From Actinomycetota bacterium (lineage in GTDB: Bacteria; Actinomycetota; Actinomycetes; Nanopelagicales; Nanopelagicaceae), in contig CANBVR010000013.1 of assembly GCA_947372965.1 (NCBI GenBank), forward strand, positions 1-34,922: DNA of 34,922 nucleotides, given 5' to 3'. The position numbers and the translations under genes were made by a program. Below, in pieces: positions 8,189 through 11,082 of the stretch. The notes below the pieces were generated by a model. The model did not search any database and was not told where the DNA came from. It saw only the letters and a program-made list of their open reading frames with translations. The stretch's first letter is position 1; every line of letters begins with the position of its first letter.

Positions 8189-10435
8189 CTATTGGCCGTC
8201 AAATAGCGGAATTGCAACTTGCGGACGCAGATGACTCTTATGAGCAACGACGGCCGCCGAGTGATATTCCTCAATCTTAGCCAGATTTGCTGATGAGCCA
8301 TAAGGCCTACCATCTACGACAGGGCCCATCTCTGCGTTCATTACCGCTATGACATCGTCACCAGAAATGGTCTTATAAGTTTCAAGGGCATGGGCCAGCG
8401 CCAACACTTTCTCGCGATTATCTCTGAGTACGATCTCTGCTCGCGAGAGTAAGCCGCTTAGGTTATTCTCAATGCGATCTGCCAATGCCATTCGAAGTTC
8501 TTTAGATCCATCATCCTTGCCTTTTGCGCCACCGGGAGCTCCAACTTCATTTCTCCGATTTGAAGCGTGGGAAGAAATAGTCTGACCCATTCCCCAATGG
8601 CCTTCCATAAAACTCGCGATAGTGGTCGCGCTTTCCAAATCACCAGAGACGCCCGAAGAGTTATCACCATCAAAGAACATGCGCTCGCCGGCAAGAGATG
8701 CAAGTGAGACCAAGATGTCAGCTTCATATTCAGTTCGCCATCTGGTGAATTGATCATCTGGTGGAATGCTTGCAACCATACCTAGGTAATCCGAACCCTT
8801 TTCGATTGTAGCCAAATCAATTGTCATGTGTTGTCGAACGAGATAAGCCATCACAGCGTGGCAGGCTTCGTGAACTGCAACAGCATGTCGCTCGCGATCA
8901 ATATATTCAACATCTTCAGCCGGACCCAAGTCCTTCAATTGCTTAGCCTTGATTACATCGCTCCAAGAGATTGCTGTGCGACCATTTCTAATTGCCATGA
9001 TAAGCGCTTCGTTGATCGTGTCTTTAATTGTCGCGCCAGTTGCGTAAGGCGTAATCGTTGCTAACTTATCAATCTCTTCAGTAGATAATGAATGAGAAAC
9101 CTTTGCAAGATACCCCTCATAAGTGCGAATCCGTCCGGCTTTACTTGGATAACCCACGCGATACATTCGATCGATTCGACCAGGGCGCAGAAGAGCTTCA
9201 TCTAGCGCCTCTGGCATATTGGTCGCCATGACTACCAGAATTCGGTATTTCGGTGGATTCTTTGGGCGCATTCCAAGAGCTCTACGAACAATGCGATTGA
9301 AGAATCCTCGTGGTTTCTTAAGTCCCGAAAGTTCAGTAAGTAGCGCTTGCAAAGTTCCCATTCCGCCGCCACCTGAACCCATTGCACTATTTGCAACAAA
9401 TGATTCCCGACTTAGAAGATATTTACTATTTCCAGATAGATAATCTCCGCCATGGCATGCCGTAGAAGATAGAGCAGAACTCCCCGAATTCATTCGTCCG
9501 GTAGATGTGGCTATCCCACGATTTCCAAGTGAATCGGCTTCATCAAAGAAGACAACGACGCCACCATAACGAAGGGCAAGCTTTCGCAACTTTCGAAAGA
9601 GCGATTTCACTTTTAAAACTCCGACACCAAAGAACATATTGTTAAAAGCACCTGGATCTACGAATACAAAGGGTTTTCCTGTCTCTCCGGCCATGGACTC
9701 CGCCATAAGAGTTTTTCCAGTACCGGGAGGTCCCCAAAGAAGAATTCCACCAGGAACATATCCACCGTGTTGCTCAATTAGTTGAGGTGATTCTAAGAAT
9801 AGAAGATTTTCCCGAATGCGATTTAGTACGTGGTCCTGACCCCAAACATCGGAAAATCTAGTTCTAATGTCATCAGGGAAATAGGTATCTATTCCACCCT
9901 TACTTAGAAACCAAAACATCGCGAAAAATTGGATGAGAATGAAAAAGACAGCGAAGAGTAGTTGACCCAACATTGGAAGGGCGCTCCAAATAACTTTTGG
10001 AGCTAGGAAAAGTGCGCGAACAGGAGTCTCCTTATAGATCGCACCAAGTACAACAGCGAGAAGAGCGATAAAAAGAAGAACCTTTATAACCCGACTTAAC
10101 CTATAGCGATTCCAATCGCTAAGGCGATGCAACTGACGATCTACGAAAGAAAAGTAGCGCTGCCAAAACCCATGATATGGGGAAAGAATTTCAGACAGTG
10201 CAAAATGGAGTTGTCTAATAACCTCCACAGCAACAAGTAGAAAAATCCACCACTTGCTCTGTGATATTTGAACACAACCATCCCAAAAAGAGAGAATTGG
10301 ATTGTCTGCTAGCGCCGCCCAAACTAATACAAGATAAACGAGTGAAAAGAGCCCAAGGAACTTGGTTCTATCGAAGGCCGAAAGGTGAATTCGGACCTTA
10401 CGATCACTATCTCGCAAGCGACTCTGGTCACTCAT
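8189..10435 (-). CDS. FtsH-like membrane AAA+/M41 zinc metalloprotease with four TM helices
   Basis: A 748-residue ATP-dependent membrane protease resembling FtsH. Four hydrophobic helices are predicted (about 24-42, 62-80, 115-134, 155-178) where classical FtsH has two and a periplasmic domain. The AAA+ module has Walker A GPPGTGKT (235-242), pore loop FFGVG (268-272), Walker B VVVFFDEAD (293-301) and a sensor/arginine-finger region with ATNMP and RPGRIDR (404-423). The M41 site is HEACH (522-526), with the third ligand Asp599 in SGDLESAT; the 73-residue spacing is close to that of FtsH. A Ser/Gly-rich insert (about 306-357) sits between Walker B and the second half of the AAA domain. The C-terminal ~110 residues continue beyond the metal ligand. 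The ATG overlaps the lipoprotein stop (ATGA). All catalytic residues are kept, so it is probably active. It could be a housekeeping FtsH substitute or a paralogue; the window cannot decide. Confidence 0.88.
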   Translation of the reverse strand: MSDQSRLRDSDRKVRIHLSAFDRTKFLGLFSLVYLVLVWAALADNPILSFWDGCVQISQSKWWIFLLVAVEVIRQLHFALSEILSPYHGFWQRYFSFVDRQLHRLSDWNRYRLSRVIKVLLFIALLAVVLGAIYKETPVRALFLAPKVIWSALPMLGQLLFAVFFILIQFFAMFWFLSKGGIDTYFPDDIRTRFSDVWGQDHVLNRIRENLLFLESPQLIEQHGGYVPGGILLWGPPGTGKTLMAESMAGETGKPFVFVDPGAFNNMFFGVGVLKVKSLFRKLRKLALRYGGVVVFFDEADSLGNRGIATSTGRMNSGSSALSSTACHGGDYLSGNSKYLLSRESFVANSAMGSGGGGMGTLQALLTELSGLKKPRGFFNRIVRRALGMRPKNPPKYRILVVMATNMPEALDEALLRPGRIDRMYRVGYPSKAGRIRTYEGYLAKVSHSLSTEEIDKLATITPYATGATIKDTINEALIMAIRNGRTAISWSDVIKAKQLKDLGPAEDVEYIDRERHAVAVHEACHAVMAYLVRQHMTIDLATIEKGSDYLGMVASIPPDDQFTRWRTEYEADILVSLASLAGERMFFDGDNSSGVSGDLESATTIASFMEGHWGMGQTISSHASNRRNEVGAPGGAKGKDDGSKELRMALADRIENNLSGLLSRAEIVLRDNREKVLALAHALETYKTISGDDVIAVMNAEMGPVVDGRPYGSSANLAKIEEYHSAAVVAHKSHLRPQVAIPLFDGQ

Positions 10436-11082
10436 CTATTTCCCCTTACAGTGAATGAATCTGCGATCTTTTTCAAAATTGCCTTGTGCGTGTTGTACCA
10501 ACTTGTCTTAGCCCTAATCATAAGAAAATAAATTCGAGATCGATCATCAGAGACTAAAGCCGTTTGGGAAATCGTTTGTGAAACCTTATCGCTTCCAGTT
10601 ACGGAGTAAAGGGATTGGACTCCCCTTGCGCCTTTCTGCACATTTTCAAGATCGTCGAGCAATTCCCACTGTGGAATATTTGAAGCAGATCCACCTAGCC
10701 AGCTAGTTAGAGGAAAGACCAAATCACGAAGCCAATTATAAGAAACCGAGTTCATTTCATCGCCATTTAGATCGCGCACTCGCAAATAGACGATTGCATC
10801 CTTTGGGGCATTTACCGAAAGGACCTCGGAAGGCGATACTCCTGAAGAGTAAGAATATGCTTCTTGAAAGACAACTGCTTGCGCTCTTGCCTTTGCAACC
10901 AAAGAAGTTGATTGCATCTCTCGATTATGAATCGCGCTCTCGGAAATTCTGTTCCAACCTTTGGGAATGGCGACGAAAGTTCCTGCACTTTTACTACCTG
11001 AATATATTTGTGAACTTGAACATGATGTCAGCGCAATAATCCCGATAAGGGACAGGGGAATAAATTGTTGCTTGCGAACCAT
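10432..11082 (-). CDS. predicted lipoprotein, translationally coupled to the FtsH-like protease
   Basis: A 216-residue protein with a lipoprotein signal: basic MVRKQQ, a hydrophobic core and lipobox LTSC with Cys21. It should be anchored to the outer face of the cytoplasmic membrane. The mature part has a PKGWNRIS segment and a C-terminal SRIYFLMIRAK...ADSFTVRG pattern. This reminds me of PsbP/Mog1-fold actinobacterial lipoproteins, but that is only a guess by pattern. It starts with ATG at 11082, 18 bases after aspS, with AGGAGAG upstream. Its stop overlaps the start of the protease gene by 4 bases, so the two are likely made together; a substrate or adaptor relationship is possible. No known family is firmly recognised. 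Confidence 0.8.
   Translation of the reverse strand: MVRKQQFIPLSLIGIIALTSCSSSQIYSGSKSAGTFVAIPKGWNRISESAIHNREMQSTSLVAKARAQAVVFQEAYSYSSGVSPSEVLSVNAPKDAIVYLRVRDLNGDEMNSVSYNWLRDLVFPLTSWLGGSASNIPQWELLDDLENVQKGARGVQSLYSVTGSDKVSQTISQTALVSDDRSRIYFLMIRAKTSWYNTHKAILKKIADSFTVRGNR

Follow-up and report, generated by a model that had tools for sequence, protein, structure and literature searches.

Introduction

The closest described relative of the protease examined here is FtsH, represented by the equivalog model TIGR01241. An AAA+ ATPase followed by an M41 peptidase, Walker A and B motifs, arginine fingers, an FxG pore loop, a zinc site made up of HExxH plus Asp, and an N-terminal membrane anchor are common to FtsH and to the proteins that we refer to as family A. 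FtsH is given one or two N-terminal transmembrane helices and is described as encoded by a single gene in most bacteria (PMC9020784). The periplasmic domain of E. coli FtsH is put at about 75 residues, and HflK is described as contacting this outer domain (PMC12067869).

The window, a 34,922-nt stretch of an actinobacterial contig, encodes a member of family A. Where FtsH has two helices, four are predicted in this protein; it lacks an outer domain, carries two inserts in its AAA+ part, and has a lipoprotein partner of its own. Among the papers listed in literature searches that covered chiefly open-access articles, none dealt with an M41 protease that has four helices or is paired with a lipoprotein, and the pair of family A and its lipoprotein may be undescribed. 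Judged by sequence comparison, the existence of the family and of its pairing can be regarded as close to certain.

An intact M41 protease between aspS and alaS

The gene order in the window is hisS, aspS, a lipoprotein ORF, the protease, a DUF948 protein and alaS, with the synthetase names assigned by reading the translations. The sequence-only reading had placed the protease at an aspS-alaS locus, and both genes do flank it, with the lipoprotein-like ORF and the DUF948 protein lying in between. The ORF boundaries, strand and length given there were also correct (Table 1).

The window protease matched Peptidase_M41 (PF01434) at 91.2 bits and AAA at 85.4 bits, exceeding the Pfam cut-offs of 29.9 and 21.2, respectively. 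Against the FtsH equivalog TIGR01241 it scored 251.1 bits, below the cut-off of 600, and no NCBIfam model cut-off was reached by the window protease, by its relative from locus L052 or by the window's partner protein. Its translation contains GPPGTGKT, MFFGVG, FFDEAD, RPGRIDR, HEACH and Asp599. In the ATPase part, P236-T242, M267, F268, G270, D298, E299, D301, N406, R417, R420 and R423 were invariant across all 49 family A rows, as were the zinc-site residues H522, E523, H526 and D599, the last of which we take to be the third zinc ligand from its role in FtsH. The intact Walker A and B motifs, arginine-finger region, pore loop and M41 zinc site noted from the window alone were thus all recovered in the translation, with their key residues kept in 49 of 49 rows.

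The other 48 family A rows were 47–84% identical to the window protease, and pN was 0.12–0.15 against a pS of 0.76–0.80 in three comparisons; because pS was saturated, no dN/dS ratio is given for the protease or its partner. With 48 relatives in this identity range and pN far below pS, the window ORF is, on comparative grounds, not a chance reading frame. Comparison of the translations shows that the ATPase and protease motifs are intact and under purifying selection. The window protease is M41-like in parts, and its chemistry is presumably M41-like too.

Table 1. Features of the protease-lipoprotein pair in the window, and loci of the related family B
Feature	Position	Strand	Basis
Family A gene, predicted four-helix AAA+/M41 membrane protease, 748 aa	8189..10435	(-)	ORF and translation; Pfam M41 and AAA
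Predicted helix 1, residues 26-44	10304..10360	(-)	Hydropathy
Predicted helix 2, residues 63-81, weakest	10193..10249	(-)	Hydropathy
Predicted helix 3, residues 116-134	10034..10090	(-)	Hydropathy
Predicted helix 4, residues 159-177	9905..9961	(-)	Hydropathy
Walker A GPPGTGKT, residues 235-242	9710..9733	(-)	Translation; 236-242 invariant 49/49
Pore loop MFFGVG, residues 267-272	9620..9637	(-)	Translation; M267, F268, G270 invariant 49/49
Walker B VVFFDEAD, residues 294-301	9533..9556	(-)	Translation; D298, E299, D301 invariant 49/49
Insert 1 region, residues 307-362	9350..9517	(-)	Length vs FtsH-type rows; Cys327 and Gly329 invariant in family A
Insert 2 region, residues 371-397	9245..9325	(-)	Length vs FtsH-type rows
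Arginine-finger region LLRPGRIDR, residues 415-423	9167..9193	(-)	R417, R420, R423 invariant 49/49
Zinc motif HEACH, residues 522-526	8858..8872	(-)	H522, E523, H526 invariant 49/49
Asp599, presumed third zinc ligand	8639..8641	(-)	Invariant 49/49 rows
PsbP-like lipoprotein partner gene, 216 aa	10432..11082	(-)	ORF; partner profile; PF01789 weakly
Partner lipobox LTSC, residues 18-21	11020..11031	(-)	Pattern match; Cys21 column invariant 48/48 rows
Family B, second M41 family with both AAA+ inserts	L040-L050, e.g. L045:7486-9504		

Membrane part and AAA+ inserts

Hydropathy analysis gave four hydrophobic segments in the N-terminal part of the window protease, whereas the same script run on E. 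coli FtsH as a control gave two, far apart. The second segment is where the count of four could fail: it may be only an amphipathic or surface helix, leaving three membrane helices, and of the 49 family A rows only 28 have a best 19-residue Kyte-Doolittle mean of at least 1.4 there, and 46 one of at least 1.0. Its octanol-scale energy was favourable in all 49 rows, however, and the mean net charges (+3.5 at the N-terminus, -0.8 in loop 1, +4.3 in loop 2 and +0.1 in loop 3) predict both protein ends inside, consistent with four helices, so we regard a three-helix form as very unlikely. The predicted outer loops are about 16–18 and 22–24 residues long, too short for a domain, and the window protease therefore appears to have no outer domain of the FtsH type; none of its four Pfam matches was to an outer-domain family. 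The initial description of four N-terminal helices without an obvious extracytoplasmic domain agrees with this topology. As a separate observation, the family A proteins at L052, L153, L174 and L057 are extended at the C-terminus by a long stretch containing two additional hydrophobic segments; in these proteins the chain may thus re-enter the membrane after the protease domain.

The ATPase part contains two inserts, whose lengths were measured by alignment columns. Asp301 and Leu366 are separated by 64 residues in the window protease, within a range of 58–107 residues in 31 family A rows and compared with 23–26 in 43 of 43 FtsH-type rows; in 11 rows of a second family, family B, the spacing was 51–72. 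Between Leu366 and Asn406 the spacing was 38–39 residues in A, 49 in B and 18 in the FtsH type, and this second insert, which precedes sensor 1, adds about 21 residues. Both inserts were found in 31/31 A rows and 11/11 B rows and in 0/43 FtsH-type rows. All 49 A rows carry the Cys and Gly of insert 1 unchanged, and 9 of 10 B rows retain them. An insert of about 50 residues after Walker B had been noted earlier; it is present, but its size is smaller, at about 40 extra residues relative to FtsH. In FtsH, the corresponding stretch holds the second pore loop, and from this position insert 1 may face the channel.

Placement of family A apart from FtsH

Two trees were computed with the insert columns left out. 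The first contained 85 rows, restricted to those with the RPGR.DR motif, and separated family A, family B and the FtsH type into three groups (SH-aLRT 100, 100 and 99). The second contained 69 rows: it left out 12 of the 31 A rows, 3 of the 11 B rows and 11 of the 43 FtsH-type rows, and added six rows that the RPGR.DR filter had dropped and four A rows from other classes. Support in this tree was 100/100 for A, 100/100 for B, and 99/95 for A plus B against the rest, and the rows labelled FtsH-type were not a single group once six divergent rows (label D) were included. In these trees, family A stood apart from the FtsH rows of the same genomes, of E. coli, of a cyanobacterium and of Chloroflexi. 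Because the branches leading to A and B are both long and join each other, a sister relationship of the two is less secure than the separateness of A; the two inserts common to both, having been excluded from the trees, give independent support to the sister relationship. The second tree also contained a very divergent M41 group (L071, L078 and L245, from Gemmataceae, Singulisphaera and Myxococcaceae) with a stem length of 2.5 and support of 100/100.

Across the four FtsH features tested, namely the TIGR01241 cut-off, helix number, the outer domain and a place in the FtsH group, the window protease agreed with FtsH in none. These comparisons support the view that family A is a distinct branch of membrane M41 proteases and not an FtsH ortholog. 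Such a branch, with putatively different substrate access, had been suggested by the sequence-only reading, which named placement inside the FtsH clade with only two real membrane helices, or absence of the four-helix form from relatives, as evidence to the contrary; family A instead formed a group of its own (100/100) outside that clade, and the four-helix form was present in relatives.

Family B, the nearest group in the trees, resembles A in carrying both inserts with the insert 1 Cys in 9/10 rows, and no FtsH outer domain was seen in it. It differs in having at most two N-terminal segments (one or two by the same hydropathy script), Glu in place of the Walker B Asp in 10 of 11 rows, an mshB neighbourhood, and no match to the PsbP-like partner in 11 B loci. 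An MshB-type ORF lay just upstream of B in five of the six loci searched for the motif, and the two such ORFs that were scored exceeded the MshB cut-off. In L047, a DUF6113 protein comes next after the family B gene. Family B occurred in 61 of 296 class genomes, three of which (G141, G161 and G320) also carry A, ruling out that A and B are mutually exclusive.

Coexistence with canonical FtsH

A family search of the window's 1.27-Mb assembly detected one M41 domain. The best AAA match, however, lay at a contig end (L002:811-1806, G000:C41) and corresponded to the beginning of a normal ftsH (332 codons), preceded by an ORF that by eye resembles hpt. The M41 half is absent from that contig, which is why the M41 search missed the canonical gene; because the contig end truncates ftsH, such a search gives a count of one M41 gene although the genome has at least two. 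This finding rules out the window protease as the genome's only FtsH, and it answers the earlier question of whether a second FtsH is encoded in the same genome. Among 20 named genomes reached through loci, all 11 that carry family A also had an M41 match of 236.6–248.4 bits, far exceeding the family A matches of the same search. The ftsH start in the window's genome, taken together with FtsH-strength matches in other carriers, indicates that the window protease is an addition to FtsH.

A lipoprotein encoded next to the protease

The gene directly upstream of the protease gene overlaps it by 4 nt and encodes a protein with a hydrophobic signal peptide and a lipobox Cys, features of a bacterial lipoprotein with predicted lipidation. 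This neighbour, like the second insert and family B, was absent from the earlier description of the window. No Pfam family matched the window's partner at E 0.001, and its match to PsbP (PF01789) was weak, at 19.4 bits against a cut-off of 23.5. Among 48 partner members, 22 matched PF01789 at E up to 1 (best 1.8e-5), each match being weak alone, and the four best solved-structure matches of the partner profile were PsbP or photosynthetic NDH lumenal subunits, again weak at E 0.068 to 1.1. The partners thus bear a weak likeness to PsbP and PsbP-like proteins; those found here are lipoproteins. Many partners contain a late Cys pair (as in RCSxxCY), in place of which the window's partner has RAKTSWY, so that a possible disulfide would be missing there.

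The association of the two genes was assessed with a partner profile built from 34 own-family partner ORFs and run over 5201 ORFs of A loci, a set that includes overlapping loci and spurious ORFs. All ORFs below E 1e-3 were partners in A loci, and the next match had an E of 2. A partner was present in 68 of 72 non-identical A loci, and in the other four the protease ORF is cut at a contig end. When a wider partner profile was applied to 296 class genomes, 45 had a partner (E 1e-8 or better), all of them among the 48 protease carriers; none was found in the 248 genomes of the class sample that lack the protease. By match coordinates the partner was adjacent and on the same strand in 44 of the 45, and use of the full ORF in G309 brought this to 45/45. 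Of the 46 class genomes that could be assessed, 45 had it directly upstream of the protease, and the partner gene came first in the pair in all loci read. The three class carriers without a partner were G043 and G257, at contig ends, and G320 (L264), where no partner match was found in 18 kb.

The 20 loci from other classes gave a comparable picture: 15 had a partner match directly upstream, two were cut by contig ends (L272 and L286), two had another lipoprotein, and one (L277, G415) had a protease with no partner match in the stretch read. G320 and L277 may represent a lone form of the protease or may have a still more divergent partner. In the two loci with another lipoprotein, which belong to one family group of another class, the partner slot (L273:6264-7430 and L284:4805-5917) is occupied by a PDZ-TPR protein with a lipobox-like N-terminus; the PDZ_2 matches of these replacements had E-values of 9.9e-6, just below the cut-off, and 6.2e-7, over the cut-off.

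Evolution is much faster in the partner than in the protease, with a pN of 0.36–0.39 compared with 0.12–0.15. Together with strict pairing and adjacency, which suit a substrate as well as a receptor, this fast evolution could be explained if the lipoprotein were a dedicated substrate or signal, in other words if the protease removed it or its mislocalised precursor and its level reported the envelope state. The gene order, with the partner first, favours neither role. Replacement by an unrelated PDZ-TPR lipoprotein suits a binding role better, and we consider the substrate explanation rather unlikely.

Distribution and genomic context

Family A was present in 21 of the 27 genomes of the window's genus, the window's own included, as a fragment in G001 and split over two contigs in G013; two of the six genomes that lack it have a completeness of 98% and 99%. 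When the class was sampled evenly, 48 of 296 genomes, from six family groups, carried it (E 1e-150 or better), and a phylum sample of 396 genomes contained, in addition to the window, 20 carriers from other classes. A scan of named genomes with two peptide patterns yielded at least 13 family A loci (L057-L069) among 80 of 238 confirmed stretches, and the carriers among the matches listed include Planobispora rosea, Phytohabitans maris, Pseudonocardia terrae, Frankia gtarii and Acidimicrobiia MAGs. A MAG titled Bifidobacterium breve groups with the window's family in the tree, and its title is probably wrong.

The pair is located between aspS and DUF948-alaS in the genus of the window and in several related genera. 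In L176, L177, L178 and L182, a rarA-type gene is located between the pair and alaS; the assignment is based on a 220-bit MgsA_C match in L182, RarA-type model matches below cut-offs in L178, and a BLAST cluster for L176 and L177. The earlier suggestion that many actinobacteria carry rarA in this interval instead does not hold for these relatives, several of which have a rarA-type gene alongside the protease. Replacement of rarA by family A was likewise ruled out: the alaS-adjacent FtsH/M41-like candidates in L177, L178 and L182 lack HExxH and are rarA-type. Elsewhere the pair occupies different sites. In L169-L171, L062, L063 and L065, which belong to the window's family by tree or identity, the stretch read shows neither aspS nor alaS near it, and the same holds for families f17 and f18. 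Conservation of the locus, which had been raised as a check, was seen in the genus and several related genera.

Searching 14 own-family genomes for aspS gave 13 aspS regions without family A, and in 11 of these aspS, DUF948 and alaS follow in direct succession. Of the other two, L212 ends after DUF948, and in L210 the space between aspS and alaS contains short ORFs without a match. BLAST clustering of 31 loci placed the protease in all 31 and the partner in 29, the exceptions being L064, where it is a fragment at a contig end, and L067, where it is too divergent. Clusters spanning 23, 23 and 17 loci were antisense ORFs over the protease, as judged by example coordinates, and the widest remaining clusters were ABC-transporter-like (9 loci), kinase-like (8) and alaS (8). 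A third conserved neighbour was thus rejected, no gene beyond the pair occurring in more than 9 of 31 loci apart from the antisense ORFs. Kept together at different sites and absent from intact ones, the two genes behave as one unit, being relocated or lost jointly.

These patterns bear on whether the protease is just a second FtsH that has diverged while keeping an overlapping role in quality control, next to a lipoprotein that is only co-transcribed and has no functional coupling to it. The catalytic parts are all FtsH-like, and among the own-family genomes listed in the class sample 9 of 28 have family A and 19 of 28 lack it, so that the gene is not essential there. The pairing nevertheless survives relocation and spans classes, and the partner was never found without the protease in 296 genomes, which makes an uncoupled second FtsH unlikely.

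Proposed function

We propose that the pair is a lineage-specific two-part membrane protease, in which a second M41 enzyme is functionally coupled to an outer-face lipoprotein, and assign this reading a probability of roughly 55%. In this proposal, the family A protease would form a hexameric ring facing the cytosol, its pore loop would pull substrates in by an ATP-driven mechanism, and the M41 site would cut them in a zinc-dependent manner. Because the protease lacks the outer domain of FtsH, the lipoprotein on the outer face is proposed to supply the role of that domain in trans, acting as a receptor or regulator that would choose which membrane or exported proteins enter, while insert 1 may line the route to the protease chamber. 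HflK/C and prohibitins are separate membrane-linked partners of an M41 protease, a logic comparable to the role proposed here. Unlike these, the lipoprotein is small, shows no SPFH likeness in Pfam and is encoded beside the protease, and its binding to the protease is putative.

Against the two-part reading stand, at the level of sequence, the two genomes without a partner (G320 and that of L277), the faster evolution of the partner and the weakness of each PsbP match. More tentatively, with the odds somewhat against it, the system could be a split protease made up of an exchangeable outer lipoprotein (PsbP-like mostly, PDZ-TPR in at least two genomes), a four-helix platform and a Cys-bearing extension at the second pore loop. 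The strongest indication that the slot serves a binding module is the exchange of the PsbP-like protein for a PDZ-TPR protein, seen in two genomes from a single family group.

The pairing of protease and lipoprotein suggests a two-part machine that would remove membrane proteins. Family A represents a second branch of M41 proteases, one that comes with a defined partner; some close relatives have it, and others lack it at a site that is otherwise intact. Little is known about how membrane AAA+ proteases select their substrates at the outer face, and an enzyme that has no outer domain of its own but is paired with a separate lipoprotein would make this question directly testable.
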